Notes under the pieces: model-generated
Seen by the model: only the letters and a program-made list of their open reading frames with translations
Databases searched by the model: none
Told to the model about the DNA's origin: nothing
DNA from: a virus
DNA: 34,719 nucleotides
Reading direction: 5' to 3' (one strand)
Virus record (IMG/VR): IMGVR_UViG_3300001680_000635
Coordinates: 1 to 34,719 of that record
Translations under genes and position numbers: made by a program
In this document: piece after piece, positions 1 to 17,524 of the stretch
Layout: each line of letters begins with the position of its first letter
Position numbering within the stretch: the first letter of the stretch is position 1

Positions 1-1
1 G

Positions 2-433: not shown

Positions 434-437
434 TTAG

Positions 438-445
438 TATAAATA
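438..445 (+). promoter_or_regulatory. T4-type late promoter octamer
   Basis: TATAAATA sits just after the dehydrogenase stop and 28 bases before the ATG at 474. This is the T4 late promoter -10 consensus, recognised by gp55-type sigma with the sliding-clamp system. In T4 transcription would start a few bases downstream, leaving a short leader. The motif also turns up by chance inside genes here, so position is the main support. Confidence 0.55.
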
Positions 446-473
446 CCTATATGAATAAAAACAGGTTTAAATA

Positions 474-1106: not shown

Positions 1107-1123
1107 TATTAGAAGGAAATTAA

Positions 1124-2564: not shown

Positions 2565-2573
2565 GGAATATGA

Positions 2574-2816
2574 ATGCAAAAAGAACTAGAAAAAATATCG
2601 AATGACTTGTTATTAGCCACTTCACATATTGTTGAAGCTGGCAATATTTTAAAAGATATGCCATTAAGTGAAACTAAAGGATTAGAGATAGCTCTTTATG
2701 AAATTGCTTATGATATGTTTGCATTGAATAAAGACCTTGAAGTAGGATTGAAGGTGCAGAGGGGAATTAATGATAAGTATAAAGACGGTATTGATGAAAT
2801 TGCGGGGATGATATAA
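2574..2816 (+). CDS. Small helical hypothetical protein
   Basis: 80 residues, predicted almost entirely helical and acidic, with no cysteine and no signal or membrane segment. Start chosen at the ATG preceded by AAGGAAT; its stop codon overlaps the start of the SPASM radical SAM gene by one base, which suggests translational coupling. Small helical proteins next to radical SAM/SPASM genes are sometimes precursor-binding partners, but this one does not show the winged-helix pattern of a RiPP recognition element that I could recognise. Function unknown. Confidence 0.55.
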   Translation: MQKELEKISNDLLLATSHIVEAGNILKDMPLSETKGLEIALYEIAYDMFALNKDLEVGLKVQRGINDKYKDGIDEIAGMI

Positions 2817-4048
2817 TGTTTTTAGAAAATAATTTAACTACAATTGCACAGACGGTGGCCACCCCGAACCCTGAGAAACAAAAATATTGTTTTGAAGTAA
2901 CGACTACACAGTTATGTAATATGAGGTGTACCTATTGTTTCGAAAACATAGGTGGCCACTTAGAAGATAAACGTAATCTAAACGACTACATCCCTAATAT
3001 TATAGAAAAAGCTAAGTTGATGCTAACATACCCTGATTTTACAGAAAAGTATGGGGGAATACATTTCGCGTTTTGGGGTGGGGAGTCATCTATGAATATG
3101 CGGATGATAAAACAGATAGTAGATGAATTCATTAACTACCCAGAGATTACCTTCTTTACATATAGCAATGGTTTAGATGTACGTGGATTGTACAAGTACC
3201 TTGATAGCTTAAAGGCTAAGAGGCCTGATATCGTAGATAGATTTACATTACAGTTTAGTTATGATGGCAAAGCTGTACATGACCTAACACGATTTGATAC
3301 AAAGGGAAACCCTACCGCTGATAAAGTTATTAAGAATCTTACTAAGTTCCATGAGAATGGATTTAGTCCAACGGTAAAGAGTACTATTAGACATCAAGAC
3401 TTCAAATATATGATTGATTCTTGGAAAGATATTAATGAATTAAGTAATACTTTAAGTGAGCGATTTGATTTTAATGGTATATCATATGCCCCTACAATTG
3501 ATGAAGATCACTCAACAGATGAAGTACACTTCAAGGACTTCAAGGAAGCTGTTGTGGGTATTGCTAAACTAGAGTTAGCCCGAAGTAAAGAGGATAAACC
3601 TAGGTTGTTAAGTTGGTTTGATGGTCAAAAGGGTCAATGTGCTGTAGGATCTACTATGGGTTGTTTAAGTGTAGATGGTAACTATTACTTATGTCATGCT
3701 GGCAATTATGCCGATGATGAAACTAAAGAAGCTTTTAAGATTGCTAATATTAATGATGCTGATGATGTATTTCTAGATAATATACTGAAATCATCAGAGA
3801 AGATAAACAACATTAGAAAGGACCATACCGATCCATTAGACTGTCAAACGTGTAGTGCTACTAACTGCCCTAGATGTGAAGTGATCAACTATGACAAATC
3901 TCAGAAGAAGACATTCGATGAGAAGTGGACAGAGTATAACGTTGATTATATGGGATTCTGTAGGTATTGGAAGTTCTTTGGTTTAGTTGATAGGGCTTTA
4001 CAACAAAAAATATATGATGAAAAAAATAGTACAGTTAAGCCAGTATGA
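2816..4048 (+). CDS. Radical SAM protein with SPASM-type C-terminal domain (rSAM 1)
   Basis: 410 residues. The radical SAM cluster motif is CNMRCTYC (Cys34, 38, 41), followed by a WGGESS form of the GGEP motif that contacts SAM. The C-terminal part has the SPASM pattern: Cx12Gx4C, then CQTCSATNCPRC (Cx2Cx4Cx2C) and a last cysteine in GFCRYW, enough for two auxiliary 4Fe-4S clusters. SPASM enzymes include the sulfatase maturase anSME, PqqE, AlbA and QhpD, all acting on peptides or proteins by radical chemistry. It is the longest of nine radical SAM proteins here and the only one with the full SPASM set. Its genomic partner is the cysteine-tailed protein at 474. The substrate is inferred, not shown. 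Confidence 0.9.
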   Translation: MFLENNLTTIAQTVATPNPEKQKYCFEVTTTQLCNMRCTYCFENIGGHLEDKRNLNDYIPNIIEKAKLMLTYPDFTEKYGGIHFAFWGGESSMNMRMIKQIVDEFINYPEITFFTYSNGLDVRGLYKYLDSLKAKRPDIVDRFTLQFSYDGKAVHDLTRFDTKGNPTADKVIKNLTKFHENGFSPTVKSTIRHQDFKYMIDSWKDINELSNTLSERFDFNGISYAPTIDEDHSTDEVHFKDFKEAVVGIAKLELARSKEDKPRLLSWFDGQKGQCAVGSTMGCLSVDGNYYLCHAGNYADDETKEAFKIANINDADDVFLDNILKSSEKINNIRKDHTDPLDCQTCSATNCPRCEVINYDKSQKKTFDEKWTEYNVDYMGFCRYWKFFGLVDRALQQKIYDEKNSTVKPV

Positions 4049-4925
4049 TCTAGTTCTAACATATTCTTGGAGTAGTGCAAATCATGGAATATGTGGCCAT
4101 ACGTATGAAGTCATTGAATATTTCTGGTTATTAAAAGACCACTTTAATGTGGGTATTATGTTTTGTGAAGACATCGATTGGGAAACATTCGAATCTGCAA
4201 TAAGAGATAAGTATGATTTTAGTGATGATGAAATCCAAATATACAAGGACAACACCCTCTTCTATAATAGACCAAGACTGGTAAAAGGGAACAACATCTT
4301 ATTTACTGATGGCGGAACCCGATCTATAAAACTCAACACCTTGTTATTCGATAATATTCTTATGTTTGCGTGTGGGGATAAAGAAGTCAAAGAGATAACA
4401 CAAGATAATGTTTATGTGTTACAAGACGATAGGGTATACGATCCGGTTAAGGGTAATGGTATAAACTATAAGAAGAAGCTGCTGTTCAGTAGATTTAAAG
4501 ATATTACAGAGGCTGATGATAACATACTGTTGTATGGTACTAAAAACTGTAGGGACATCGATAATGATATGTACCAAGGGTTGTTAAGTAAATATGATGA
4601 AGACTTTATAGTGTTAAGTAATGAAGAGAACACCAGAAGTGATTTAGATGAGAGGTTTAAGTTCTTGGAGATGCCAGTAACCAATCTCTTCAGTAAATTC
4701 AATACATACGTGTATACGCCCGTGCCGCGGAAGTTTGATTGTAGTCCTAGATTCATCGCTGAATGTAAATACTATAATAAAGAAGTTATATATGAGATCA
4801 ATTACTTAGAAGAAGATAAAGGATTGTACTATAGGAAGCAAGATATTGAGAATGATTTTGATTCTATATCTCTTAAAGAAGATGATGAGATTGTTGATAT
4901 CATAAGGAATACGTGTGGATTATAA
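4014..4925 (+). CDS. Glycosyltransferase-like protein, paralogue of the gene at 1719
   Basis: About 303 residues from the ATG at 4014 (a second ATG is at 4017; a TTG at 3987 lies further into the upstream gene). N-terminal SSANHGICGHTYEVIEY resembles the glycine-rich acceptor-side loop and helix of GT-B glycosyltransferases. The C-terminal SPRFIAECKYYNKEVIYE resembles the GT-B donor-site helix and following strand. It is paralogous to the protein at 1719, with matching landmarks at both ends. The gene overlaps the SPASM radical SAM gene by 35 bases and the next radical SAM gene by 11, so it belongs to this operon. A cytoplasmic sugar transferase is the best reading, with donor and acceptor unknown. 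Confidence 0.5.
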   Translation: MMKKIVQLSQYDLVLTYSWSSANHGICGHTYEVIEYFWLLKDHFNVGIMFCEDIDWETFESAIRDKYDFSDDEIQIYKDNTLFYNRPRLVKGNNILFTDGGTRSIKLNTLLFDNILMFACGDKEVKEITQDNVYVLQDDRVYDPVKGNGINYKKKLLFSRFKDITEADDNILLYGTKNCRDIDNDMYQGLLSKYDEDFIVLSNEENTRSDLDERFKFLEMPVTNLFSKFNTYVYTPVPRKFDCSPRFIAECKYYNKEVIYEINYLEEDKGLYYRKQDIENDFDSISLKEDDEIVDIIRNTCGL

Positions 4926-5916
4926 TATAGCAAGTAACAAGTTAAACCTTGATTATGATAGACCTATTAACAATAGAGCTAAGCTAGATACAGGCACGCA
5001 CTGTAATTATAAGTGTGACTTCTGTTATTATAAGACTCAGTTAGATGTTAAGACAGAATTCGATATCATTAAAGATCGTATTGACTACTTGATTGAATGT
5101 GGTATAACAGAATTGGACTTATCTGGGGGTGAATCATCTATTCATAAGGATTGGTTTAAGATATTAGACTACTGTACGGATAAAGGTTTATACCTATCAT
5201 GTTTAAGTAATGGCTTTAAATTTGCTAAGAAAGACTTCATCCAGAAATCATATGATCATGGGCTAAGGGAGATTCTATTCTCTGTACACGGGTATGACAC
5301 CGCGTCACATGACTTATTGGTTGGCAGGACACATGCATACAAGAATATCATTAAAGCAATTAAGAATGCTCAGGACCTTGATATGGTTGTACGTGTTAAC
5401 TGTACGATAACAGAGAGTAACTATAAACACTTAGATCAGTTCGTAGAGATGATGAACGAGCTTAAACCATTACAAGTTAACTTCCTTCCTTTAAATTATT
5501 GGGATGATGCACGACAGCAGAGCGCTTTAAACTATTCTGAGGTCTCTCCATATATCCATAAGGCTATCGATTCATTAAACATTGAAGAGATCAACGTTAG
5601 ATACATTCCATTCTGTTTCATGAAAGGATACGAGAGGTATGTGGTTGGATACTACCAGCATATATACGACGTTAAAGACTGGAACATAGCAGTGTACGAT
5701 CATACAATAGATCCTACTGAATACAAGAAAGATAAGGTTAAAGCTTTGTTTGATTCAGCTAAGGGGAATAGACTACGATCTTATTACAAAACAAAAGAGT
5801 GTTTTGATTGTAAACACTTCTATATATGTGATGGAGTAGAAAAACAGATAAAGGATATAGATGTATACCCTGAGGCTGCTACTAAGATAGAAGATTTAAA
5901 TTACTATTATGCATAG
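4915..5916 (+). CDS. Radical SAM protein (rSAM 2)
   Basis: 333 residues from a GTG start that overlaps the previous gene by 11 bases. Cluster motif CNYKCDFCYY (Cys30, 34, 37) and an SGGESS motif near residue 75 define the radical SAM core. NCTITESNYKH looks like the strand and loop common in MoaA/PqqE-type barrels. The C-terminus carries CFDCKHFYICDG (Cx2Cx5C), as in SPASM or twitch auxiliary-cluster domains. Such enzymes cleave SAM to a 5'-deoxyadenosyl radical to modify peptides or small molecules. It differs from the Cx4C group (rSAM 3, 5, 6, 7, 8), so it may have a separate substrate. The substrate cannot be told from sequence. Confidence 0.88.
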   Translation: MDYNIASNKLNLDYDRPINNRAKLDTGTHCNYKCDFCYYKTQLDVKTEFDIIKDRIDYLIECGITELDLSGGESSIHKDWFKILDYCTDKGLYLSCLSNGFKFAKKDFIQKSYDHGLREILFSVHGYDTASHDLLVGRTHAYKNIIKAIKNAQDLDMVVRVNCTITESNYKHLDQFVEMMNELKPLQVNFLPLNYWDDARQQSALNYSEVSPYIHKAIDSLNIEEINVRYIPFCFMKGYERYVVGYYQHIYDVKDWNIAVYDHTIDPTEYKKDKVKALFDSAKGNRLRSYYKTKECFDCKHFYICDGVEKQIKDIDVYPEAATKIEDLNYYYA

Positions 5917-6862
5917 ATTTGAATTAATACAAACCAATGAGTATCCTGACTTTGATATGAAGGTTACTATGAAGCCATCATTCAGGTGTAATCAGAACTG
6001 TTGGTTCTGTGAAGAGTATGATAATGATGCTGGTGATTGGACTCCTGAGATGCACGATGACGCGTTAAATATACTTCATGAAGCTATTAAAGATAAGGAT
6101 AATATTTTCATATATTTTTATGGGGGTGAGCCAACTCTATATAAGCGATGGGAGGAGCTACACTATGCCATAATCAAACGATACCCGGCGAAGCGACTGT
6201 TCATTCAAACACAAACTAATATGAGCGTAAACAGAGCTAGGCTCACCCGGTTTTTGAAGAAGATAAATGAGATTAAATCAGATACTCATACAATAGATAT
6301 TTGTAGTAGTTATCATTTAACTAAACAACGAGTTGAAGTATTCAAGGAGAAGATGGATATCTGTAATGAGTATGATGCTTTAGGTCTATGTTTCTTTAAT
6401 ACAGATTATATCAATGAAGAAAGATTCTTATCGGAGTTCAATACATTGGTTGATGGTTATCCTGACAAGGTTAAGTTGAGATTCACTGAGATCGGTGGTG
6501 GAGTATCAGGCACACCAGAAGCTCAACAGTATCCAACAGTTCTAGATATTAAATCATTTGAGTTCAGATACTTTGTTAATAAGTATCCTGAGTTAGTACA
6601 ATACTATGAAGATGGATTTAACTTTATGGTAGACAATGTTAAGATGAACTTCGCTGAGGTGTCAGCTAATGATATCCATAAGCAATTCAGATTCATGAAG
6701 TGTGAGTGTGGTACAAAGAATCTTGTTATAGATCATGAGTTAAACGTGTACAGATGTAATGATGACTTTAAGAATGGTAGGAAGAACGTACCAGATTCAG
6801 ATCCTAAGATATGTTTAAACAAAGAATGTTATGATGGATTGGAGTTCACGAAGTGGAGATAG
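5909..6862 (+). CDS. Radical SAM protein, Cx4C-type (rSAM 3)
   Basis: 317 residues, overlapping the previous gene by 8 bases. Motifs: CNQNCWFC (Cys27, 31, 34), YGGEPT, and a glycine-rich TEIGGGVSG stretch around residue 195. The C-terminal auxiliary region reads CECGTKN, a YRCN and then CLNKEC (Cx4C), a layout shared with four other radical SAM proteins here. A [4Fe-4S] auxiliary cluster of twitch/SPASM type is likely. The GGGVSG stretch resembles DGVSG in rSAM 7 and DGGDG in rSAM 6, so the family probably keeps the same SAM or substrate loop. Reaction unknown. Confidence 0.88.
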   Translation: MHRFELIQTNEYPDFDMKVTMKPSFRCNQNCWFCEEYDNDAGDWTPEMHDDALNILHEAIKDKDNIFIYFYGGEPTLYKRWEELHYAIIKRYPAKRLFIQTQTNMSVNRARLTRFLKKINEIKSDTHTIDICSSYHLTKQRVEVFKEKMDICNEYDALGLCFFNTDYINEERFLSEFNTLVDGYPDKVKLRFTEIGGGVSGTPEAQQYPTVLDIKSFEFRYFVNKYPELVQYYEDGFNFMVDNVKMNFAEVSANDIHKQFRFMKCECGTKNLVIDHELNVYRCNDDFKNGRKNVPDSDPKICLNKECYDGLEFTKWR

Positions 6863-7644
6863 AGATTGATCTAATTGATGCGTGTAACTTATCATGCCCA
6901 TTATGTAATAGGTCTAAACATTCTAGTAAAGATAAGTACATGCCTTTAGATGCATGGATTGATATAATTGACTTATATAACCCATCGATAATATACTTTA
7001 TTGGTACACGGAGTGAACATACGTTATATCCTGAGTTCATTGAGTTGTGTAAATATATTAAATCTAAGAGCATTAACATTGTATTAAGTACTAATGGATG
7101 CACAAGAACTGCTGAATGGTGGAAAGAATTATCTGAAGTATTAGATTGTAATGATGAAGTACGATTTGCCATCGATGGTATAACACAAGAAGTATATGAG
7201 ATATATAGAGTGGGGGGTTCACTTCAAAGAGTATTAGATAACCATAAAGCTTTCGGCTCAGGTATAATACAATACATAGAGTTTGATCATAATAAACATG
7301 AAGATATAACAGAATTTGTTAAGATGTTTGATGGTGTACGAATCATTAACTCTTCTCAAAGCGATACTGAGATAAGACCTAGAGACGATGTCATTAAAAC
7401 ATATGATATATTAAATAATATAGATAAAGATGTTATTGTTTGTGAGACAAAAGGCAAGATGGTGTTTGTTAATTATAATGGTGAGGTATCTCCATGTTGT
7501 CATTATAATGAACACTTAACCCTTAAAGGTCATGAATGGAATAAAGGGTATGAAGAGATTGAGGACGGTGATTACGACTTCTGTAAGATTATATGTGGCA
7601 AGAGGTCATCACTACTACGTAAGCATCTTAATATAGAACTATGA
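6853..7644 (+). CDS. Radical SAM protein lacking the GGEP motif (rSAM 4)
   Basis: 263 residues from a GTG that overlaps the previous gene by 10 bases. Cluster motif CNLSCPLC lies very near the N-terminus (Cys11, 15, 18). Where relatives have GGEP, this one reads YFIGTRSEHTLYPEF, so the SAM amino-group contact is altered. Later landmarks are present: LSTNG, RFAIDG, and a C-terminal Cx12Gx4C (ending GEVSPCC) with further cysteines in FCKIIC, consistent with an auxiliary-cluster domain. LSTNG, a DG-type strand and GEVSPCC are usual in SPASM enzymes of the peptide- or sugar-modifying type. It may still be active; some radical SAM families tolerate a degenerate GGEP. Confidence 0.85.
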   Translation: MEIEIDLIDACNLSCPLCNRSKHSSKDKYMPLDAWIDIIDLYNPSIIYFIGTRSEHTLYPEFIELCKYIKSKSINIVLSTNGCTRTAEWWKELSEVLDCNDEVRFAIDGITQEVYEIYRVGGSLQRVLDNHKAFGSGIIQYIEFDHNKHEDITEFVKMFDGVRIINSSQSDTEIRPRDDVIKTYDILNNIDKDVIVCETKGKMVFVNYNGEVSPCCHYNEHLTLKGHEWNKGYEEIEDGDYDFCKIICGKRSSLLRKHLNIEL

Positions 7645-8201
7645 AGATATCCATACTTGTGTTAACTCATAACAGGCCGGAACTATTTAAGAGGTGTATT
7701 GGTGCTTTACTAAAGAATAAGCCCAAGTGGGCAGAGATACTTGTTAATAATGATAGTAATGATATTGAAGAGATTGCAGGGGCAACATATTACTACGAGA
7801 AGAACAATGATCTATCTAAGACATATCAACACTTATTCGATAAAGCCCAAGGGGAGTTTATATACTTCAGCGAAGATGATGATTACGTTATTGATAACTT
7901 CTGGGATATGGTTGAACCATTAACTGGAAATACAGTATTTCAATACTTACCTGAAAATGATATCAAGTTATACTATGAATACTTTATACACAAGCCAGAC
8001 TTCAAAGAGAACTTTCAATTATCTCAATTAGTGTTTAAGAAGAAAGACTTGAAGGAATTCCCTATAGGTAATGATATACACAATGATTGGTGCTTGTATG
8101 AATCTATCACAGATGTTTCATTCATTAATAAACCAATATTCACTCAAACTACGGATGGAAAGGATAACATAAGCTTCCCAGAATATGCAAAGACAATATG
8201 A
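7641..8201 (+). CDS. GT-A family-2-like glycosyltransferase
   Basis: 186 residues; the start overlaps the previous stop as ATGA. The N-terminus ISILVLTHNRPELFKRCIGA is the nucleotide-binding first strand and helix of family 2 glycosyltransferases. NNDSND and YFSEDDDYV give the acidic motifs that bind the nucleotide sugar and metal. The protein is shorter than most GT2 enzymes (220-300 residues) but holds the core, as small phage versions do. It would transfer a sugar from an NDP-sugar in the cytoplasm; the acceptor is unknown. It is the only clear GT-A gene in the island, set between radical SAM genes, which argues for a sugar in the pathway or on its product. Confidence 0.8.
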   Translation: MKISILVLTHNRPELFKRCIGALLKNKPKWAEILVNNDSNDIEEIAGATYYYEKNNDLSKTYQHLFDKAQGEFIYFSEDDDYVIDNFWDMVEPLTGNTVFQYLPENDIKLYYEYFIHKPDFKENFQLSQLVFKKKDLKEFPIGNDIHNDWCLYESITDVSFINKPIFTQTTDGKDNISFPEYAKTI

Positions 8202-9120
8202 TATAAAACATAAGATGCAACGACTATATGTACATTGGGATGTAAGTACCCAATGCAACTTAGCTTGCTCTTACTGTTATGCTATAAAAGACTACGGGGA
8301 TGAGTGGGGTAAGATAGACTCGTGGGCAAGACAAAGACTTGTCATGATGAATATGGCTAATAGTACATTACCGATATTCTTAGGATTACTCGGGGGTGAG
8401 CCTACCATACATCCAAGATATGAAGAGTTACTTGATTTAGCCCATGCCGCCATATCTAAACATAAGGATGGCAGGTTATACATTACCACTAATGGTATTA
8501 AGAGTAATGAATGGTTTAAGAACCATAAGTATTATCCTAACACATACTTCTTATGGAGTGCTCACTTTGAATATGAAAAAAGATATGGGGAAGGATTTGA
8601 AAGACTCTTAGAAAACATTCGTATTATAAGAAAAAAGGGGTTTAAGTGTAAAGCTAATGTAATGCTTAGCCCCGATGAAAGACTTTGGCCGAAGATACAC
8701 GCGTTCGTGGATGAGTTAGAGAAGATTGAGGGGGTAATTATTCATCCGCACTTCTTATATGATGAAGGTAATGTCCATAGACTACATCAGTACACCCCAG
8801 AATTCTATGAAGAGTTTAAACGATTTAAATCCTACCCTGAGTATTTTGTATTTGAGAATGATGGGGAGAGAACTACATATAATGATTATACCATATTTAA
8901 TAATGAGAAGACCTCATTTACTGGGTGGGATTGTTATAATAATAACTATGAGATAAGCTATAAGGGAGAAGTCAATAGGTTTTGTTTTGAGGAACGTGAT
9001 GACTTAATAACTAACTTCAACTTCTTTAAAAACCTTGGAGAGGTAATACCAACTAAGTGCCCTCATACAACATGTAACTGTGATGGATTATTAAAAATAT
9101 GCAAAGAATTAAAAAACTAG
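8185..9120 (+). CDS. Radical SAM protein, Cx4C-type (rSAM 5)
   Basis: 311 residues from the ATG at 8185, overlapping the glycosyltransferase by 17 bases; an ATG at 8215 is an alternative start. Motifs: CNLACSYC (Cys24, 28, 31), LGGEPT, ITTNG. The C-terminal part has an auxiliary pattern WDCYNNNYEISYKGEVNRFC, then CPHTTCNCDG with the Cx4C seen in rSAM 3, 6, 7 and 8. The extra cysteines (CNCDG, ICKEL) could complete a second cluster. The order of core, auxiliary half and terminal Cx4C is that of the twitch/SPASM class. Substrate unknown. Confidence 0.88.
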   Translation: MQRQYDIKHKMQRLYVHWDVSTQCNLACSYCYAIKDYGDEWGKIDSWARQRLVMMNMANSTLPIFLGLLGGEPTIHPRYEELLDLAHAAISKHKDGRLYITTNGIKSNEWFKNHKYYPNTYFLWSAHFEYEKRYGEGFERLLENIRIIRKKGFKCKANVMLSPDERLWPKIHAFVDELEKIEGVIIHPHFLYDEGNVHRLHQYTPEFYEEFKRFKSYPEYFVFENDGERTTYNDYTIFNNEKTSFTGWDCYNNNYEISYKGEVNRFCFEERDDLITNFNFFKNLGEVIPTKCPHTTCNCDGLLKICKELKN

Positions 9121-10025
9121 ATATTAAAAAACTAGTCGCTCCGCCTGACGCTTACGTATCATATGATATAACAATGAATTGTAATATGCGATGTGAATAT
9201 TGTTATGTCTTGGATAAGCTTGACAACAAAAAGAAAGGTAACTTGTTTATACAAGGCATGGTACTTAGGAAGTTCGAGAGATTCTTAAAGAAGTATAAGG
9301 ATCTATCCGTTGAATTTGACGTATTAGGAGGAGAACCTTTATTATTTAAAGGCCTAAGGGCATTTGTTGAGAAGCTAATTGTGTTACAAAATAAGTATAG
9401 CAACTTTAAATTGATAACTATCACTACTAATGCTACAATTCTTAATAATGATATTCTTAATTTAGATTATAACCCTAAGATACATTTCGTAATCTCGTAC
9501 CACAACAGCATTAAATCTATCGATAAATTAAAAACAAACTTAATAGCATTTGGTAAAATAACCGATTATGTTACATTAACAATACTACTATTTAAAAAAG
9601 ATATAAATATATCTAATATACTACTGTTACTTAAGTTTTGTGATGAGCATAATATTAACACGACTTCGATCGATGTGAATGATGGTGGTGATGGATTTGA
9701 GTTTGTAGATAAAGAGCTTTACAAGTTAATAACATCAAAAACTAGTAATTATAAAGACATAAAGAGGTATCCGTTTAATGGTGAAATGGTTTCAATGAAA
9801 GAGATACACGACAATAACTGGTACATTGAAAAGGATGTTATATGTACTATGGCATGTTTCAATATTGATTATGAAGGCAATATACACGCAGAATGCAATT
9901 ATCAATTACCCCATGCAAACATCAAAACATCAGATATAAATATTAATAAATTACACTGCGTGAATACATCATGCATGGGCGAGACTGGATTAAACCAAAA
10001 GAAAATAGAATGTAAAATGCTATGA
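9099..10025 (+). CDS. Radical SAM protein, Cx4C-type (rSAM 6)
   Basis: 308 residues, overlapping the upstream gene by 22 bases. Motifs: CNMRCEYC (Cys28, 32, 35), LGGEPL, ITTNA, and a DGGDG loop near residue 195. The auxiliary region holds CTMAC, GNIHAEC and then CVNTSC (Cx4C). The first residues contain a doubled lysine-rich stretch (KKLDIKKLV) coded by a short direct repeat, attaaaaaactag, within 9108-9135. A small peptide just downstream (10022-10066) resembles this N-terminus, hinting at past duplication. As for its relatives, a peptide- or metabolite-modifying radical enzyme is the safe call. Confidence 0.88.
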   Translation: MQRIKKLDIKKLVAPPDAYVSYDITMNCNMRCEYCYVLDKLDNKKKGNLFIQGMVLRKFERFLKKYKDLSVEFDVLGGEPLLFKGLRAFVEKLIVLQNKYSNFKLITITTNATILNNDILNLDYNPKIHFVISYHNSIKSIDKLKTNLIAFGKITDYVTLTILLFKKDINISNILLLLKFCDEHNINTTSIDVNDGGDGFEFVDKELYKLITSKTSNYKDIKRYPFNGEMVSMKEIHDNNWYIEKDVICTMACFNIDYEGNIHAECNYQLPHANIKTSDININKLHCVNTSCMGETGLNQKKIECKML

Positions 10026-10066
10026 TAGAAGTTTTAAAATTAAAAAAGCTAGTAGGGCGTAAATAA
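10022..10066 (+). pseudogene. Possible remnant of a radical SAM gene start
   Basis: A 14-codon reading frame starts with an ATGA overlap on the stop of rSAM 6. Its peptide, MIEVLKLKKLVGRK, resembles the first dozen residues of rSAM 6 (KKLDIKKLVA). It looks like the 5' end of a further radical SAM gene that was lost by deletion. A chance lysine-rich peptide or a translational filler is also possible. Confidence 0.3.
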
Positions 10067-10078
10067 AGGGATATGTAG

Positions 10079-10798
10079 ATGAAAATTAAAACAATTAATG
10101 ATATAAAGAAGGTTAAAAAAACAAATAAGTTTATTAAGGAAATGGCTGCTTTGACTGGATTTAATCCTAGGGAAATGACTACTAGTTATCATACTAATAA
10201 ACCATTATACTTCTTCATGTATCAAGGGAAAAAGTATATTTACAAGAAAGCTATAGATGCACAATTTGAATCTGCAACGGCATTTACAGATAGAGAACTT
10301 TTATATAATAAGAATAAGTTCAGTGGTGAAATTAGAATAAAATCTAGTGAACCTAGCGGCCCTTCTATAGAGGGTAAGAAGTATTATTCAATGAATAACA
10401 AACATTATGTTCGCGAGAAATACTATGAGTTTATTAATAAAAATGTAATTGAAGAAACCGAACACTTTATTATTAAAAATGCATTAGTTGGATATAGAAC
10501 CCTAGTTGAATCTGACTTAACACCTGAAGGGCGTACTAAGATTTTAGCTGGTTTAAACGCTGATGGTGAATGGAAATTTTATCCTAGTGTCGGTATTAAC
10601 GACTATATGATTAATGACGCCGGTGATATTCAGAATATTAGTGAGACACACCTAAATTATAGTAATGATACAACTGATCTATTTGTATGTAAATTTAGTG
10701 GTTCAAAGATGTCGGTGGTATATCCATTAGATACTAGTTACAACCTAGATGTGATTAAATTTAATTACGATACGACTGATGATGTATTGGTTAAATAG
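10079..10798 (+). CDS. Hypothetical protein, possibly kinase-fold; paralogue of the next gene
   Basis: 239 residues, no clear family. It shares landmarks in order with the following gene: GKKYIYKKAID versus GKKYVLKNELR, then an aromatic/acidic helix, EETEHFIIKN versus EETDHFFVFK, and a late FYPSVGINDYMINDAGDI versus VPIVLGRGNI...FIMYDIDI. The layout (glycine-rich start, strand with a lysine, hinge-like strand, and a late hydrophobic strand with Asp) recalls a protein-kinase-like fold. The usual HRD and DFG motifs are not seen, so activity is doubtful. It lies after a short 50-base gap, within the radical SAM array. Confidence 0.45.
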   Translation: MKIKTINDIKKVKKTNKFIKEMAALTGFNPREMTTSYHTNKPLYFFMYQGKKYIYKKAIDAQFESATAFTDRELLYNKNKFSGEIRIKSSEPSGPSIEGKKYYSMNNKHYVREKYYEFINKNVIEETEHFIIKNALVGYRTLVESDLTPEGRTKILAGLNADGEWKFYPSVGINDYMINDAGDIQNISETHLNYSNDTTDLFVCKFSGSKMSVVYPLDTSYNLDVIKFNYDTTDDVLVK

Positions 10799-10800
10799 TA

Positions 10801-11520
10801 TTGATTGACCAGGAAAAATTATACAGGAGATGGGAACGTATAATGTCTAAGGGGCTATCTCCTGAGATGTTTAGTATAAAGAAAACACTATATTTTAACA
10901 ATAAAGTATCAAAACTTCTATATAAAGACACAGGAGTTTTAGTTGACGTAAGATCGATTATTCCTTTAGGAACTCATGAAAACAAGTTTACATATAATTG
11001 TGTAATTTCTGGTAAAAAATATGTACTAAAGAATGAACTACGGCGTAATATAGAATCAACTCTTGCTTATCAATTTCGTTATTTTGATAAATTAAAAAAG
11101 AGATGTCCTCTTACTTTTGAAAGATTTAGAGCCCCAAAAGATGTTCTAAAGTATAATTCGAAAAAAGCAAAAGAGTTAATTAAATTTATAGGCTCCTCCG
11201 AATACTCTAGACAAGAGTACCTTCCGGAGTTATTAGAGGAAACTGATCACTTCTTTGTATTTAAAATGTATGATATTATAGAGTATTCAGAGGATGAATA
11301 TAAGAATAATATGCATACCTTATTAAATGTATTTAATAATGATATTGTACCTATAGTTTTAGGGCGAGGTAATATTGCGAAGTTGGTAGGCTCAGATAAG
11401 TTTATAATGTATGACATTGATATATTAAATAAAGATCCTATAATTAATTGGCCATTAACTCACTCTGGAATGAATGATAACGATATTTATGATTATATGG
11501 ATATAAATGATGATCGTTGA
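10801..11520 (+). CDS. Hypothetical protein, possibly kinase-fold; paralogue of the previous gene
   Basis: 239 residues from the TTG at 10801, two bases after the previous stop. An ATG at 10843 with AGGAGA at 10825-10830 is an alternative that shortens it by 14 residues. Seen: NKFTYNCVISGKKYVLKNE as a paired-strand start with a candidate lysine, EETDHFFVFKMYDI as a hinge-like strand, and GRGNIAKLVGSDKFIMYDIDI as a late strand ending in two Asp, like the metal-binding strand of kinase-like folds. It is paralogous to the upstream gene. It overlaps rSAM 7 by 14 bases. Function unknown; a phosphotransferase acting on an island product is a guess. Confidence 0.45.
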   Translation: MIDQEKLYRRWERIMSKGLSPEMFSIKKTLYFNNKVSKLLYKDTGVLVDVRSIIPLGTHENKFTYNCVISGKKYVLKNELRRNIESTLAYQFRYFDKLKKRCPLTFERFRAPKDVLKYNSKKAKELIKFIGSSEYSRQEYLPELLEETDHFFVFKMYDIIEYSEDEYKNNMHTLLNVFNNDIVPIVLGRGNIAKLVGSDKFIMYDIDILNKDPIINWPLTHSGMNDNDIYDYMDINDDR

Positions 11521-12241
11521 ATGGGAAGTAACCTTAGAATGTAATTATGATTGTTTCTATTGTACTAATCTAGATAAGACTATATTACCTAGAGATGATA
11601 TAGAGGCCTTTGTTAAAATGATATCTGAAACATATGACGCAGAGCTATTTGTATTTGGTGGGGAACCCTTCGTACACCCTCAGATAGAATGCATCATTGA
11701 AACCCTTAATAGATATAAAGTTGATTTTGTTATACAAACAAACCTATCGAAGAAGTCTGTCCATGTGATGAATAGAATTACAGAACCATTCAAGATTAAT
11801 GTATCAGTACACCCCACTGAAGTAACTCGTAAGGTAATATTGGAGTGTTTTAAAAAGGTTCCGGATAACGTACAGATTAAAACTATAGATGTGATGTACA
11901 CTGGAAGAGAGGCGATTAATTACTATATAGATATTAAAGAGTTTGGTGATACATACTTAACACCAATAGCTGATTTTGGCGATGGTGTATCAGGAAAGAC
12001 CCTTGAAGAGTATAATACTATGAGACACAATAAAATTTGGAACAAAGTCATATCATTTGAAACAGTGAAAAAGCTAGGCCAATACAGATCTGATCTATGG
12101 GAGAATTATAATCCACGTGGTAAGCCTTGTTTATATGATAACAAATATTTCTTATATGGACCTAATATGCAGTTATATAACTGTTGCTATAGAGAAAACC
12201 ATACAGGAATATGTAACCATGACAAGTGCTTTTTAATGTAA
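11507..12241 (+). CDS. Radical SAM protein, Cx4C-type, compact (rSAM 7)
   Basis: 244 residues; two adjacent ATGs at 11507 and 11510. Motifs: CNYDCFYC (Cys12, 16, 19), FGGEPF, IQTN and a GDGVSG loop near residue 163. The C-terminus has CLYDNKYFLYG, YNCC and CNHDKC (Cx4C), as in rSAM 3, 5, 6 and 8. It is the shortest member that keeps the auxiliary region. MYTG and TPIADFGDGV mark the later strands of a partial TIM barrel. The gene sits between a putative kinase-like gene and a U32-like gene. Confidence 0.87.
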   Translation: MMIVEWEVTLECNYDCFYCTNLDKTILPRDDIEAFVKMISETYDAELFVFGGEPFVHPQIECIIETLNRYKVDFVIQTNLSKKSVHVMNRITEPFKINVSVHPTEVTRKVILECFKKVPDNVQIKTIDVMYTGREAINYYIDIKEFGDTYLTPIADFGDGVSGKTLEEYNTMRHNKIWNKVISFETVKKLGQYRSDLWENYNPRGKPCLYDNKYFLYGPNMQLYNCCYRENHTGICNHDKCFLM

Positions 12242-12251
12242 TGGAATATAT

Positions 12252-13037
12252 ATGAGATATTTAATAGCAGGTGCCTTTTCAAGGACTCTTCCTATATTTA
12301 AAGCATTAACTAAATATAAAGGAGATGCTGATATAGTAGTATATGATGGTATTAATAAGTGTAAATGGAATGGCGGTAGGATCAATAGGGATATTAAATA
12401 CTCAGAAGGCCTAATGAATTACTATTACTCTAAAGGGGTAGGGATAGCTTTAACATTTACTAATCATAATATAGATTTGACAGATGATATGGGCAACCGT
12501 CTTCTTGCGAAGTTCCATAGAGAGGGTAATGCAATAATCTTAGTTAATAGTAGCTTACGTAAATACATTCGAAAGAACTATCCTAAGTATGAATTAATCT
12601 ATTCTATAACAGGTATGGGTACCCTTAATATACCATTACAGGATATAGATATTCAAGTGTACCATCACTTAGAATCCGTATATGATTGGATTGTTCCTAG
12701 GTTTGAACATGTGTTTGATAAAAGAGCTGATGAATTAGATCGTACTAAGTGGGAAGTAATGGTTAATGACACTTGTGTGTGGAAGTGTAAAAGGTTTGAT
12801 GAACACTTTAAAGCTATAGCTGATGAGAATACAAAAGGTAATGCGTATTCGGAGGAGATAGAGGGGTGTTGGATTAAGGGATTTGACCCTGATATTGAGT
12901 CTAAACAAGATACTATGGATATAGACACAGCTAATATTAATAGACTTAAAGGGGAAGGTGTGCAGTCATTTAAGATAATAGGTAGAGAATTAACAGATGA
13001 GGCTTATACGGGTGAACTTGAGAGATATTTGGTGTAA
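12252..13037 (+). CDS. TIM-barrel protein resembling the peptidase U32 group
   Basis: 261 residues. No radical SAM cysteine motif. The order of landmarks (KWNGGR, then GVGIALTFTN, LVNSSLRKYIRKNYP, LIYSITG and VNDTCVWKCKRFDEHF) matches, from memory, a bacterial U32-like family with lines such as 'TFTN', 'EYIRKNYP' and 'CxxxCxRxxH'. The late FKIIGRELTDEAY resembles the U32 'fKIeGR' strand. U32 relatives include UbiU/UbiV and RlhA, which bind iron-sulfur clusters and modify quinone precursors or RNA without oxygen. Here Cys in CVWKC and GCW might bind a cluster. It likely works with the adjacent radical SAM enzymes. The match is by eye. Confidence 0.5.
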   Translation: MRYLIAGAFSRTLPIFKALTKYKGDADIVVYDGINKCKWNGGRINRDIKYSEGLMNYYYSKGVGIALTFTNHNIDLTDDMGNRLLAKFHREGNAIILVNSSLRKYIRKNYPKYELIYSITGMGTLNIPLQDIDIQVYHHLESVYDWIVPRFEHVFDKRADELDRTKWEVMVNDTCVWKCKRFDEHFKAIADENTKGNAYSEEIEGCWIKGFDPDIESKQDTMDIDTANINRLKGEGVQSFKIIGRELTDEAYTGELERYLV

Positions 13038-13039
13038 AT

Positions 13040-13960
13040 ATGCCTGATAATATTAAAACAATAAATGCATTTAATGACAATTATACCCTAGTTGAATATG
13101 AATTATTTACTATGTGTGATAAAGCATGTTCATACTGTTATAATATAGATGAAGAAACACCTAAAAGATTTACTAATAATACTAAGGATATTATTGATGG
13201 GTTAGCCAGAATAATGGATATGGATAACAAGAGGATTATAATACAATTAATAGGTGGTGAGGTACTATTACATAAGGGGTTTAATGAGATCATACAATAT
13301 TTTATTGATAATAAACATCCATATCATAAACTATCGGTATTTACACATTCTGATCATGACCCATCTATGTTTAAATCAAAATTATCTCCTTTAATATCAC
13401 TTGGGGATAATGTTAAAATAAACATCACATTACATCAGGAACACCTAAACAAACTCCAATTTAAAAATAATCTTGTATTTGTAGAACAGGAATTTAATCA
13501 TTGTGCATTATACATATTTGTATATCCTGAATACATCAATAATTTTCCATTCTTATACGAACTATTAGACTCTACTAGGATCTCAATCTTTCCTATAATA
13601 TTAGATGATTCAGAAGATATTGCACTGGCCTATGAGATGACTAACTTAAATAAGTTAGAAAAGTATGAGAACAGGATGGATGTTCAATATGATATAGATG
13701 GTACTATAATGCCTTATAATAAAGGTAAATACTATATGTACAAATCTGAACAATTACGATATAAAGGTCGTAATTGTTCAGTTAGGGCATTTGAGGTGAC
13801 TAAAGATGGTAATATAACAATGTGTTGTTTTACCAATGAAGCCGATACCCTTGGTAATATATTCGATAAAGATTATAAACATCTATTTAACAAGAGAAAT
13901 ATTATATGCCAAGAGGATAAATGTCATTTTAATCTTGTTTCAATGAAAGTAGAAAAATGA
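13040..13960 (+). CDS. Radical SAM protein, Cx4C-type (rSAM 8)
   Basis: 306 residues, starting two bases after the U32-like gene. Motifs: CDKACSYC (Cys26, 30, 33) and IGGEVLL, a GGEV form of GGEP. The auxiliary region fits Cx10Gx4C exactly (CSVRAFEVTKDGNITMC), and is followed by CQEDKC (Cx4C). The middle is less conserved, with no TNG but FTHSD in the matching strand. Its last codons overlap the transketolase-like gene by 4 bases, which ties the radical SAM array to the halogenase and transketolase group in one transcript. Confidence 0.87.
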   Translation: MPDNIKTINAFNDNYTLVEYELFTMCDKACSYCYNIDEETPKRFTNNTKDIIDGLARIMDMDNKRIIIQLIGGEVLLHKGFNEIIQYFIDNKHPYHKLSVFTHSDHDPSMFKSKLSPLISLGDNVKINITLHQEHLNKLQFKNNLVFVEQEFNHCALYIFVYPEYINNFPFLYELLDSTRISIFPIILDDSEDIALAYEMTNLNKLEKYENRMDVQYDIDGTIMPYNKGKYYMYKSEQLRYKGRNCSVRAFEVTKDGNITMCCFTNEADTLGNIFDKDYKHLFNKRNIICQEDKCHFNLVSMKVEK

Positions 13961-14640
13961 AAAAGAAATTACTTGAATACAGCTACAAACAAGGGTTAAG
14001 CCATATACCTTCAGCATTATCTATGTTGGACTATGTGTGGGAGCTATTTAATGACAAGCTAGTAACCCCTGATGACCACATAGTAATAGGTAAACCCTTT
14101 GGGGCCCAAGCATATTATTTAATATGGAAAGAATTAGGGCTCTTAGATAATATAGAATCACTATCAATGGGGCTTAAACACGATGAGATACCTTTCGTTG
14201 ATTATTCAGAGGAGACTATTGGTAATGCCTTAGGGGTGGCGACTGGTATTGCTATGGCCTCTGATAAATTAGTATGGGTTAATATAACCGATGCGACCTT
14301 ACAAATGGGTAATACCTTAGAAGCTATTCAGTTTATAGGTCAACATCAACTAAAGAATATTATGTTAACGATTGACTATAATAACTCTCAGGTGGTTGGT
14401 AATACCTCTGATATTATAAATGTAGATCCGGTTATAAATATGTTTAAAGCGTATAACTGGCATGTTGAATATGACTTGAATAACTTTGGCATGGCATCAA
14501 GGCCAAAGGTTTTTATATTGAATACTATTAAAGGTAATGGGGTTCAAACAATGATTGAGGATAATAAATTATGGCATTACAAGAAAATAGAAACATCAGA
14601 ACAATTGCGGTCGTTGGTGGCGGAACTTCAGGATATATAA
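13957..14640 (+). CDS. Transketolase-like N-terminal (pyrophosphate-binding) subunit
   Basis: 227 residues, overlapping rSAM 8 by 4 bases. Landmarks of the thiamine diphosphate (ThDP) pyrophosphate domain: SHIPSALSM near residue 16, GNALGVATGIAMA near 90, then VNITDATLQMGN..IDYNN where transketolases have GDG...N, and NTIKGNGVQTM before WHY. The GDG glycines are replaced (TDA) while the Mg-binding Asp and Asn remain, and SKGH-type His is replaced in GKPFGAQA. Transketolases transfer two-carbon ketol units; split pairs also acylate or branch sugars in natural-product pathways. Its partner domain is at 15808, beyond the halogenase. The 3' end overlaps the halogenase by 70 bases. Confidence 0.85.
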   Translation: MKKKLLEYSYKQGLSHIPSALSMLDYVWELFNDKLVTPDDHIVIGKPFGAQAYYLIWKELGLLDNIESLSMGLKHDEIPFVDYSEETIGNALGVATGIAMASDKLVWVNITDATLQMGNTLEAIQFIGQHQLKNIMLTIDYNNSQVVGNTSDIINVDPVINMFKAYNWHVEYDLNNFGMASRPKVFILNTIKGNGVQTMIEDNKLWHYKKIETSEQLRSLVAELQDI

Positions 14641-15827
14641 CTACCCTCTTCCTCTGTAAGAAATATCCCAAGAAGAAGATAACATGGATTTATCCAGAGG
14701 CTAATGACCCTATAGGGGTAGGAGAAGCTATGGTCCCAGATGTATCAAACTTCTTAAAGGATTTAGGGATAACCACTGAGGATCTTATGCGCCATGCCAA
14801 TGGCACCTTAAAGTTAGGGATTGAATTCGAAGACTTTAATAAAGAGGGGGAGTCATTTAGATTACCCTTTGGCAGTAGCAACAATGGCTGGGGGGAAGGA
14901 GAAATCGATCGGATAATGACCTTAGGCACTATACCTTCTAATATATTAGACTATGAAGATATATCTGTACACTTTAGGGCCACTGAAGTTCTAAAGTATA
15001 TGGACACATTATATGGGGCCTTCGATAACCTTGAGATTAAACGGACCACTGCAACATTAGGGGAGCTAAGTCATGACTTAATTATTGATTCCACTGGATT
15101 TGGTCGGCATCTATTAGGGCCAGACCCTGAATTTGTATCAATCGCCGATAAGATACCTAATAATAAAGCGTTGGTATTCCGCCATCCTTATACAAATAAA
15201 AAAGAACAGATGGTACCCTATTCAATATTTAAAGGAATGGACCATGGATGGATATGGAATATACCGTTGGGCGATGAGATAGCTTATGGTTATGTGCATG
15301 ATGGGAAGTATGATGTAAAAGAAGCCTTTACTAATTATATCCAGGATAAGTTAGGGGTAGTCCCCGATAATATAAGAGAGATTGATATGGTTACTGGTAG
15401 AAATACCACCCACCTCAAAGATAATAAACTCTATATTGGCTTGGCTTCATCCTTCATTGAACCTATTGAGTCAACAGGATTATACTTAGTGACCCACGCC
15501 CTTAACTTGTTAAAGGAATATATTGACGGAGGTATCACTGAAGGTGAATATAATACTAGTATCAATAATGAATTTGATGTAATCACCAACTTTATTCTTG
15601 CCCATTATAAGTATTCATCAAGGGATAATGACTATTGGCAGGGCTATAAAGATGCTGACGTTAAATTATATAAGGAAATTGGGTTATTCCCTGCTGTAGC
15701 TTGGGCCCATATATTAAGTGGCTTTGGTAAAGCTAAAACCCCTGAATATAAGTTAGATGTAAGGGAACATATTAAAATTATTAAAGGTAAACAATATGTA
15801 GAATGGTATGAGAGCAACTTTAAATAA
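14571..15827 (+). CDS. Flavin-dependent tryptophan-halogenase family protein
   Basis: 418 residues. FAD-binding GxGxxG at residues 16-21 (VVGGGTSGY), GVGEAMVPDVSNFL near 49, the catalytic lysine in LKLGIEF (Lys81; Lys79 in PrnA), and the WxWxIP halogenase signature (Trp227, Trp229) are all present, with IEPIESTGLY late. The family uses FADH2, oxygen and halide to form hypohalous acid passed along the lysine. It is shorter than PrnA-type enzymes (about 510-540 residues). T4-like cyanophages carry relatives, and one such viral enzyme has been reported to iodinate. The start is placed inside the previous gene because the Rossmann strand begins at once; the 70-base overlap is unusual. Substrate unknown. 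Confidence 0.9.
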   Translation: MALQENRNIRTIAVVGGGTSGYITTLFLCKKYPKKKITWIYPEANDPIGVGEAMVPDVSNFLKDLGITTEDLMRHANGTLKLGIEFEDFNKEGESFRLPFGSSNNGWGEGEIDRIMTLGTIPSNILDYEDISVHFRATEVLKYMDTLYGAFDNLEIKRTTATLGELSHDLIIDSTGFGRHLLGPDPEFVSIADKIPNNKALVFRHPYTNKKEQMVPYSIFKGMDHGWIWNIPLGDEIAYGYVHDGKYDVKEAFTNYIQDKLGVVPDNIREIDMVTGRNTTHLKDNKLYIGLASSFIEPIESTGLYLVTHALNLLKEYIDGGITEGEYNTSINNEFDVITNFILAHYKYSSRDNDYWQGYKDADVKLYKEIGLFPAVAWAHILSGFGKAKTPEYKLDVREHIKIIKGKQYVEWYESNFK

Positions 15828-16269
15828 ATTTGTAAGACGCACAGATGTAATCCTATTACATTGCGATATGTGGGGGTTCGATTGCCCCTCAATTAATATG
15901 GGGATACAAGAACCCAACATGGTTAACATCGCTGCAGGCTTGGCTTCTCAAGGAAAGAAAGTAATCGTGTATGGTGTTGCAGGCTTTGTATTATATAAGG
16001 CCTATGAACAAATGAAATTAAATGTGAAGGGGTGGGCAGAGAATTATGGGTCAGTTGTATTCGTTAACGCGGGCAGAAATGGATGTTATTCAGCATGTGG
16101 TCGAGGCCACTTAGTTGATGATGACCAAGACTTGTGTAAGGCCTTAGATATGGATTTATATACCCCTGCCACCCGTAAAGAGTTTTTAAGAGATGTTAAG
16201 AACGGATTACAGGCTAATGGATCCAGATTTATTAGATTGGGGTTTGATGGGGAAGTATGGGATCAGTAA
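15808..16269 (+). CDS. Transketolase-like central (pyrimidine-binding) subunit
   Basis: 153 residues, overlapping the halogenase by 20 bases. GIQEPNMVNIAAGLASQGKKVIVYG matches the transketolase pyrimidine domain, where the Glu (in EPN) protonates the ThDP aminopyrimidine. FVNAGRNGCYSACGRGH resembles the following dimer-interface loop, and TPATRKEF matches the domain end. It lacks the third, C-terminal domain of full transketolases and of DXS. With the subunit at 13957 it could form a two-chain ThDP enzyme, the halogenase gene being placed between them. Such pairs occur in branched-sugar and aminocyclitol pathways. The product is not known. Confidence 0.83.
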   Translation: MRATLNKFVRRTDVILLHCDMWGFDCPSINMGIQEPNMVNIAAGLASQGKKVIVYGVAGFVLYKAYEQMKLNVKGWAENYGSVVFVNAGRNGCYSACGRGHLVDDDQDLCKALDMDLYTPATRKEFLRDVKNGLQANGSRFIRLGFDGEVWDQ

Positions 16270-16922
16270 TTGATAATATTATTAGAGGACTCTATATAGG
16301 TGGTGTAGGTCCTTGGGATGCTTGGGATGATAACAGCAGTCTTTCGAATAAAAATATATCCCTACTATATTTGACACAAGATTGTAATTGGTCTTGCTGT
16401 TATTGTGATTGTGGTACGAGGATAGGTAACAATACTATAGCAAGTGTGAATGATCTAGATCATCTACGTAATTCTGGGTTAACTTTATATGATATTATCG
16501 ATAGGTTGGTGGTGTTAACAAAGGGGAATGATATTATTTTATCAGGCGGGGAGTTTGCCTTATTAGATGTTAATATGATCGATTATATATTCAAGTCGTT
16601 TAAGGATAGGGCAGTGTCAGTAGCTACTAATGGATTGTTCTTTACCAAAGGGTATCATAAGAAATACGCTGGTCAATTTGACAAGATATATTACCACTGT
16701 GTAGAAGAATTAGGGCAGACAATAAAATACCCTAATATGAAAGACATAATATATATCCTATTAATACATCATAAAAATATATCAAAACTAAAAGATATGT
16801 TTGATATGTACCCAGATATAAAATTCCAGCTGGAATGCTATGCTGATGATATACCTAATGACCCGTTAACCCTAACCAAGGCAGATCATTTAAAAATTCG
16901 AATTTATGATAAGTATCTATGA
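16257..16922 (+). CDS. Short radical SAM protein without auxiliary cluster (rSAM 9)
   Basis: 221 residues, overlapping the previous gene by 13 bases. The motif is CNWSCCYCDCG (Cys43, 47, 50) with additional cysteines at 48 and 52, then ILSGGEFALLD and VATNGLFF. No C-terminal cysteine cluster follows, so only the core cluster is present. This resembles the compact activase or QueE-like size class. CxCG after the motif recalls QueE, but the usual long spacing of QueE is absent, so I do not assign it. It precedes the two epimerase genes. Confidence 0.8.
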   Translation: MGSVIDNIIRGLYIGGVGPWDAWDDNSSLSNKNISLLYLTQDCNWSCCYCDCGTRIGNNTIASVNDLDHLRNSGLTLYDIIDRLVVLTKGNDIILSGGEFALLDVNMIDYIFKSFKDRAVSVATNGLFFTKGYHKKYAGQFDKIYYHCVEELGQTIKYPNMKDIIYILLIHHKNISKLKDMFDMYPDIKFQLECYADDIPNDPLTLTKADHLKIRIYDKYL

Positions 16923-17524
16923 TTATAGCTGTTACAGGCCACTCAGGCTTTATTGGTAAAGCCCTATGTAAAGCCATATTAGATAAGGGATGGACCCTTA
17001 TTAAGATTAATAGATCATTTAAACCTACTGAATGCGATAGGATATATCATTTAGCGTGCCCCAGCACAACTAAAGCTATTAACGATGATCCTGTAGGGGT
17101 TATGGATACTATAATCGATGGCACGCGTAAAGCTATGAAGATATGCCCCACAGCGCAATTTATTAATGCTTCATCTATAGGGGCTAATGATACTATAGGG
17201 GATAATGCCCAAGTGTGTTATAATTCAGCCAAGAGGGTTATGGAGTTGTATCTTAAATATGCTGGTGTTGAGGGGATTAATTATAGACTACCTTCAGTAT
17301 ATGGTAAAGGGATGAGCAAAGATAGCTTGATCCAACGGTGTATTGATGGTAATGCCTACAAACCAAAGGATCCTGACCAGGTTCATTACATAAGCCATAT
17401 AAGTAATGTTATAACAGCAATGATTGATTTGAAGCCTTTAGAAGTAGAGGGAATTACATTAGGAGATATATATGAACATTTTAATTCTGGGCGGCGCGGG
17501 CTTTATAGGGACACACTTAGCTAA
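16919..17524 (+). CDS. Short NAD-dependent epimerase/dehydratase (extended SDR)
   Basis: 201 residues, starting by ATGA overlap on rSAM 9. Rossmann motif GHSGFIGK (TGxxGxxG type) at the N-terminus, IYHLA, INASS and YNSAK (the YxxxK catalytic pair) show an extended SDR sugar epimerase/dehydratase. It is shorter than usual (about 300 residues), missing part of the substrate-binding C-terminal domain. Its last 53 bases overlap the next, longer SDR gene. NAD(P)-dependent change of a nucleotide sugar in the cytoplasm is likely; the sugar is unknown. Confidence 0.8.
   Translation: MIIAVTGHSGFIGKALCKAILDKGWTLIKINRSFKPTECDRIYHLACPSTTKAINDDPVGVMDTIIDGTRKAMKICPTAQFINASSIGANDTIGDNAQVCYNSAKRVMELYLKYAGVEGINYRLPSVYGKGMSKDSLIQRCIDGNAYKPKDPDQVHYISHISNVITAMIDLKPLEVEGITLGDIYEHFNSGRRGLYRDTLS

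Follow-up and report, generated by a model that had tools for sequence, protein, structure and literature searches.

The viral record IMGVR_UViG_3300001680_000635 (IMG/VR) is a linear viral fragment of 34,719 bases, analyzed here in its entirety (hereafter, the window), which encodes nine radical SAM (rSAM) enzymes. One of these, RS1 (2816..4048; all features lie on the + strand unless noted), is accompanied in related viral contigs by a nearby gene for a protein with a Cys-rich C-terminal tail, located at 474..1106 in the window. This Cys-tailed protein tracks RS1, not the remaining rSAM genes. That the two work together is well supported, and the Cys-tailed protein is quite likely to be the substrate of RS1. 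Overall, the region is probably a surface-maturation island with two parts: module A, in which RS1, the Cys-tailed protein and a partner protein (1124..1768) would modify the Cys tail, and module B, which would make a surface glycan. The Cys-tailed protein was overlooked in the preliminary description of this DNA, and is the best clue to the function of the island.

The nine rSAM open reading frames (ORFs) are grouped on the + strand within 14 kb, and all carry the CxxxCxxC motif near the N-terminus (starting at residue 11-43), just as first described. A GGE-type motif, reported at that time for most of them, follows CxxxCxxC in eight of the nine; the enzyme encoded at 6853..7644 has IGTRSE there. 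The PF04055 search that had been proposed as a check matched all nine ORFs when run on the genome, with eight above the cut-off (59.8 to 29.8 bits) and that at 16257..16922 below it (21.0 bits). When scanned singly, the other ORFs, apart from RS1, scored 57.9 bits at 4915..5916 (also phrog_27238, E 3.6e-100), 43.3 bits at 5909..6862, 53.8 bits at 6853..7644, 52.7 bits at 8185..9120, 37.5 bits at 9099..10025, 30.2 bits at 11507..12241, and, marginally under the cut-off of 29.5, 28.7 bits at 13040..13960, which had reached 29.8 bits in the genome search. The short protein encoded at 16257 (221 amino acids in the window) lacks the C-terminal Cys cluster present in its relatives; as it groups in the tree with relatives from other phages, it belongs to a real rSAM family. 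Among 50 control viral records, two carry any rSAM gene, one each, so chance could hardly bring nine together within 14 kb. In the tree, RS1 formed one clade, with a single member in each of 18 islands. Well-supported clades were likewise formed by 4915 and 8185, both extending across phages, by 11507 (a single clade, support 98), and by RSb, one of two further module-A enzymes, RSb and RSc, seen in relatives.

The Cys-tailed protein ends in a Cys-rich C-terminal region (CVCHADCGSHTACTC...; full tail, CVCHADCGSHTACTCYSSHCNSYYY). In its relatives, the tail is a repeat, mostly of the unit CTCNCNY, and often stands directly before an S74 tail-fiber chaperone domain. For example, the protein adjoining the RS1 homolog in contig G002 (IMGVR_UViG_3300025727_000603) has the C-terminal sequence CRSNCICDSDCACNAVCNCNNNCDCNYTQ, and contig G003 (3300010160_002125) has CTCNCNY repeats in four consecutive proteins. 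In contig L276, the gene directly after RS1 encodes a near-matching tail, CVCNSDCGNHSVCSCHGDCGCNYS, which bridges the irregular tail of the window protein to the CTCNCNY family. The head of the protein points the same way: a profile built solely from the Cys-free heads of CTCNCNY proteins, and searched over more than a thousand island ORFs, ranked the window protein first (E 9e-4) and a protein from contig G004 second (E 0.02). A tblastn search with the window Cys protein against named phages gave no match. The residues found between the cysteines of 95 repeat units were, position by position, Thr (85%), either Asn or Asp (83%), and Asn (97%).

Some Cys-rich proteins differed from this general pattern. 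Very long Cys arrays were observed at L187:13695-14570 (- strand) and L192:8772-9917, and in contig G027 the array was split into three blocks within one protein. The Cys protein at L175:9608-10393 has a Cys-rich N-terminal part besides its CTCNCNY array. In phage CP220, at L193:24206-24577 and L013:8107-8532, we also observed two more Cys-rich proteins, of a different, CxxC-repeat type (CPT_0032 and CPT_0154); the 4915 homolog follows CPT_0154 at a distance of roughly 0.8 kb.

To follow the association between RS1 and the Cys-tailed protein, a forward scan of 2.9 million viral contigs was performed, using as query the DNA of two CTCNCNY units alone. It returned 27 contigs, every one of which carries rSAM genes (27/27, 3-16 genes each, against the 2/50 of the controls), although about eight of these contigs represent nearly the same population, sharing one 202-amino-acid Cys protein, and such near-identical contigs inflate the raw counts. 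A first Cys pattern (CxC-x3, repeated) had returned mostly low-complexity noise and was used solely as the source of control contigs. In the reverse direction, scanning viral contigs with the RS1 protein on its own gave no match, and the RS1 profile contained no stretch conserved enough for a contig scan. The reverse test was made from the module-B gene 4915, setting aside three contigs with RS1 just outside the stretch, and CPt10. The Cys-tailed protein was present in 20 of the 21 contigs with RS1 within 8 kb, and in none of the 16 without. A profile search then located an RS1 relative elsewhere in the record for 5 of those 16, with a Cys-tailed gene directly after it in all five.

When all collected RS1 clusters were considered (joined at 80% identity, part of the members having been found through the Cys motif), the Cys-tailed protein was located at most 5 kb from RS1 in 24 of 25. 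These 24 clusters therefore show the arrangement used to recognize ribosomally synthesized and post-translationally modified peptides (RiPPs), namely a Cys-rich target gene beside the maturase. The sole exception, L220, is also the one among the 21 contigs above. Its Cys protein (L220:5160-5600) keeps the head and, out of frame, a remnant of S74, with a frame break between them; the Cys repeat is missing, through a deletion or a collapsed assembly. Among cultured phages, RS1 and CPT_0180, a Cys-repeat protein, each had matches in 15 Campylobacter records, and the two sets of records were identical. These data bear on the reading under which the rSAM set serves as auxiliary metabolism, raising host metabolism or iron-sulfur (Fe-S) use, the Cys protein being a bystander. 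Authors have read phage rSAM sets in this manner, as host-metabolism or Fe-S genes, for CP220 (PMC2853527) and for marine T4-like genomes (PMC5332604). A bystander would not be expected beside divergent RS1 genes in nearly every cluster, nor to be predicted correctly five times out of five, and we regard this reading as improbable.

To place the Cys-tailed protein in the phage, we considered the domain that follows the repeat. Peptidase_S74 (PF13884) scored above its cut-off in six of the seven relatives tested, and started directly after the Cys region. S74 domains, known from both tail fibers and spikes, help the trimer to fold before being cleaved off; the Cys region would therefore remain as an exposed tip. 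From this domain and from the gene context in the relatives, we infer a location in the virion, and the window protein is itself a probable tail protein.

As for the enzyme, the best PDB match of the RS1 family profile was CteB (5wgg), the SCIFF maturase, which forms thioethers in peptides (E 9.9e-27), and CteB was likewise the best solved match for the RSb and RSc profiles (E 7.5e-31 and 6e-18, respectively). The structures listed for the 4915 profile were SkfB, viperin-like and BlsE, not CteB. A SPASM Cys pattern (C275, C293, C343, C346, C351, C354, and C382) is kept in at least 90% of the RS1 family, and the Pfam SPASM model scored 20.5 on RS1, slightly under its cut-off of 21.5. In enzymes of the thioether-forming class, the known acceptors of the Cys sulfur are the side chains of Thr, Asn, and Asp (PMC8326336). 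Together, the CteB match, the SPASM pattern, the residues between the cysteines and the S74 domain suggest that RS1 modifies, and most likely cross-links, the Cys tail. At the Cys-rich C-terminus of a probable tail-tip protein, RS1 would join the Cys sulfur to nearby Thr, Asn, or Asp side chains or perform a related Cys-directed radical reaction, yielding a rigid, stable tail-fiber or spike tip. In most relatives, the CteB-like RSb and RSc would act too, on a Cys tail followed by the S74 chaperone domain. A thioether is the preferred bond because the enzyme family is CteB-like and Thr, Asn, and Asp lie between the repeat cysteines, but its formation can be proposed only tentatively, at slightly less than an even chance. 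We also noted two RSb-like genes, at G002:C1:34470-34811 and L210:2842-3771, in which the first ATG, GTG, or TTG falls after the CxxxCxxC region; either translation starts at an unusual codon or the gene is damaged.

The same tail could be read in terms of metal binding. The T4 gp37 protein contains an iron needle coordinated by His residues, and a Cys tail whose CxC spacing is dense and regular, in what is probably a tail tip, might similarly bind a metal or an Fe-S cluster, with RS1 adjusting or loading the needle without cross-linking; some relatives also encode IscU and A-type Fe-S carriers. However, a needle alone does not explain a constant SPASM maturase partner, and Thr, Asn, and Asp between the cysteines suit cross-linking, which leaves this alternative rather unlikely.

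Several points weigh against the two-module explanation in which RS1 modifies the Cys tail. The raw counts are partly circular because many of the contigs were found via the Cys motif, which does not apply to the reverse tests. Neither S74 nor any other Pfam domain matched the window protein, which ends in NSYYY and carries an irregular Cys tail. Moreover, the Cys proteins, mostly of 167-381 amino acids and with a folded-looking head, are not short leader-core precursors trimmed to a small product. RS1 itself scores far under all NCBIfam maturase cut-offs (55.5 versus 340 for PapB, 35.5 versus 425 for SCIFF), and has neither an N-terminal extension nor a fused recognition element (RRE). It is also the only one of the three module-A enzymes seen in the window, although RSb and RSc may lie beyond the window edge since the contig begins inside the UDP-glucose dehydrogenase gene. 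Finally, the bond type assigned to RS1 is a guess based on its family and on the residues of the tail. The partner protein (1124..1768), recognized from an alignment of 17 relatives and its position, usually after the Cys gene, gave a predicted model without a PDB match, by which an RRE fold was neither seen nor excluded.

The preliminary description had suggested peptide maturation or a modified glycan as the purpose of the rSAM set, and the evidence points to both, as two separable modules. In contig G027 (111 kb, gp23-positive), only three rSAM genes were found, RS1, RSb, and RSc, all beside the Cys protein; module A can thus exist on its own. The opposite case is seen too, with no RS1 near 4915 and its neighbors. 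Module B would comprise the remaining rSAM enzymes together with glycosyltransferases, a UDP-glucose dehydrogenase, epimerases, deacetylases, a split transketolase and a halogenase-family flavoenzyme. Together these would make an unusual sugar and attach it, with either tail proteins or the host surface as the acceptor. For this module, we infer both product and attachment throughout. A single pathway is an alternative, with all the rSAM enzymes, including RS1, making one unusual glycan or nucleotide sugar and the Cys protein serving as its glycosylated carrier, with cysteines as disulfides or S-glycosylated. The many sugar enzymes and three glycosyltransferases of the island suit it, as does the pelagimyophage tail-fiber region, in which rSAM cassettes are kept together with lipopolysaccharide (LPS) genes (PMC7029224). 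It is nonetheless unlikely, given that G027 has RS1, RSb, and RSc with the Cys protein and no sign of the module-B rSAM enzymes, that the Cys protein tracks RS1 and not 4915, and that the RS1 profile matches CteB.

The conserved island covers approximately positions 1-19,458 and is thus wider than the nine-gene span, with other genes interleaved among the nine. It opens with a UDP-glucose/GDP-mannose dehydrogenase (UGDH; 2..433; PF00984, E 5.5e-14) that is truncated by the contig start and is the first gene of the island in most relatives. Three glycosyltransferase genes were identified. The one at 3987..4925 (likely start 4014) belongs to a family with no PDB match by sequence, and its assignment to GT-B was settled by the predicted structure (AlphaFold, pLDDT 90.8), which has GT-B enzymes as its best solved matches, among them PimA (Z 16.6, root-mean-square deviation 3.4, 264 residues). 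A GT-B-like paralog that aligns with this family is encoded at 1698..2564, with an annotated start that is too early, and a short GT2 enzyme at 7641..8201 (PF00535, E 3.8e-9). Among the other enzymes, the protein encoded at 14571..15827 belongs, by its sequence, to the tryptophan-halogenase family (PF04820, 203.9 bits) with catalytic motifs kept; aligned with tryptophan 5-halogenase 8fov, it retains the Lys in NGTLK, the Glu in EPIESTG and the WIWNIP motif. It is flanked by a transketolase N-part (13957..14640; PF00456, E 5.2e-9) and a probable C-part (15808..16269; PF02779, 19.4 bits for a cut-off of 27), which adjoins the N-part in relatives. Two NAD-dependent epimerases/dehydratases (16919..17524 and 17472..18359; PF01370, E 5.7e-14 and 1.3e-45, respectively) and a PIG-L type deacetylase (18441..18968; PF02585, E 4.7e-9) follow, and a polysaccharide-deacetylase-like protein on the - strand (18943..19458; phrog_26430, E 8e-20), whose position is kept in relatives, marks the island end.

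The remaining island proteins were an 80-amino-acid protein directly before RS1 (2574..2816), small ORFs being found before RS1 in G002 and G004 too; a protein seen only in the window (10079..10798), with no family match and no relative in the compared islands; a protein common to contigs G001 and G002 (10801..11520; E 1e-122 to G002); and a conserved Cys-containing protein (12252..13037) with invariant C37, C175, and C179. The latter is perhaps U32-like, an identification that was set aside since one relative alone matched PF01136, below the cut-off (E 0.0018). In the 24 records searched, IscU (PF01592) was found in six and A-type Fe-S carriers (PF01521) in eight, none of them in the window. 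Such Fe-S genes lie directly beside the island at G010:C1:150844-152331 and G015:C1:18154-19135, with others among G016, G017, G025, and G030; they perhaps load the rSAM enzymes.

Regarding the origin of the island, the window encodes T4-type neck and head-closure proteins (phrog_211 and phrog_460) and a tail-sheath stabilizer (phrog_227), as well as a PAAR protein and PhoH. No gp23 capsid gene was found in the window fragment, but six related records have one above the Pfam cut-off; the T4-type structural genes of the window and of these six records place the island among T4-like phages. At 26093-30687, the PAAR protein has a long extension and is followed by a 945-amino-acid protein with a HEIGAH motif and a transglycosylase-like stretch; both are probable tail-tip enzymes. 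The gene order of the island is largely shared with many independent viral contigs, such as G002, G003, G025 (3300047548_001122), and G010 (3300022602_000029), and large tail-like genes surround the islands in several of those read out. The proposal that this is a viral island was thus borne out, and the comparison of gene order in viral metagenomes suggested at that time yielded much the same order in many contigs. The opposite outcome that had been envisaged, homologs in cellular genomes only, was not observed: in a collection of species genomes from bacteria and archaea (84,980 in all), the CTCNCNY motif matched once, in a 3-kb contig of a metagenome-assembled genome; RS1, the Cys protein and a remnant resembling S74 are seen in that contig too. 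A chimeric assembly, joining a cellular gene cluster to phage genes, could be imagined because the window is linear, 34.7 kb long, and lacks a capsid gene. It is dismissed because the order is kept within many independent phage contigs, six records carry gp23 and tail-like genes surround the islands, and the near-absence of the motif from cellular genomes agrees with this. The probability of a chimera is negligible, and it is refuted as far as present data go.

Beyond the window, it is conceivable, though somewhat short of an even chance, that T4-like phages mature their own virions by radical chemistry, with one to three CteB-like enzymes cross-linking a Cys-repeat tail-tip protein, so that the rSAM-modified protein resides in the virus particle and is not a secreted peptide. 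Large rSAM sets have been known in phages since 2010, with no target stated, and the constant Cys-tailed neighbor, often bearing S74, provides a concrete substrate hypothesis that is testable in cultured Campylobacter phages. If true, a component of the virion would be modified by radical chemistry, rSAM peptide chemistry would reach beyond small secreted peptides into the structure of viruses, and genes currently classed as auxiliary metabolism would be reinterpreted. The tail tip is a place where such chemistry had not been looked for. Literature searches, covering papers outside subscription, found none linking rSAM enzymes with tail fibers and Cys-rich proteins, and none on phage-encoded ribosomal peptides with rSAM enzymes.

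Large phage rSAM sets are themselves already known, contrary to the initial statement that no viral set of this size had been described: CP220 has 11 rSAM proteins and CPt10 has 12 (PMC2853527), IBB_35 has six (PMC3322345) and the marine T4-like genome TARA_ERS488813_N000010 has 12 (PMC5332604). Our own PF04055 search of CP220 found 11, in agreement with the paper. What appears new in the literature searched is the constant Cys-tailed partner. The Firehammervirus phages CP220, CPt10, CP21, and IBB_35 share RS1 and 4915 with the window and also have sugar enzymes and a Cys-repeat protein, CPT_0180, with CTCDCNY units (AEF56812.1 in IBB_35); in contrast, their genes are scattered across the genome. 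The 21-bp repeat of the CPT_0180 gene was recorded in 2010 with no function given, and in the literature searched its link to rSAM enzymes has not been drawn. The marine T4-like genomes and pelagimyophages are also T4-like, with about 12 rSAM genes or rSAM cassettes in the tail-fiber region; in the portions of these papers available (PMC5332604 and PMC7029224), they were read in terms of Fe-S metabolism or host-range flexibility, and the Cys-tailed protein is not mentioned.

Among known maturation systems, the CteB/SCIFF and PapB maturases of ranthipeptides, a class marked by a thioether from Cys to a non-alpha carbon, share with RS1 an rSAM core, a SPASM Cys pattern, a Cys-rich neighbor, and Thr, Asn, or Asp near Cys. 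RS1 differs from them in having no fused RRE, in scoring far under the NCBIfam cut-offs and in its proposed target, a long phage protein, probably structural, that carries as many as 16 repeats, instead of a short peptide. In the His-Xaa-Ser and CXXX-repeat systems, a repeat protein is encoded beside its rSAM maturases, as in module A; those systems are, however, cellular, with another repeat, and their profile similarity is weak, far under the cut-off.

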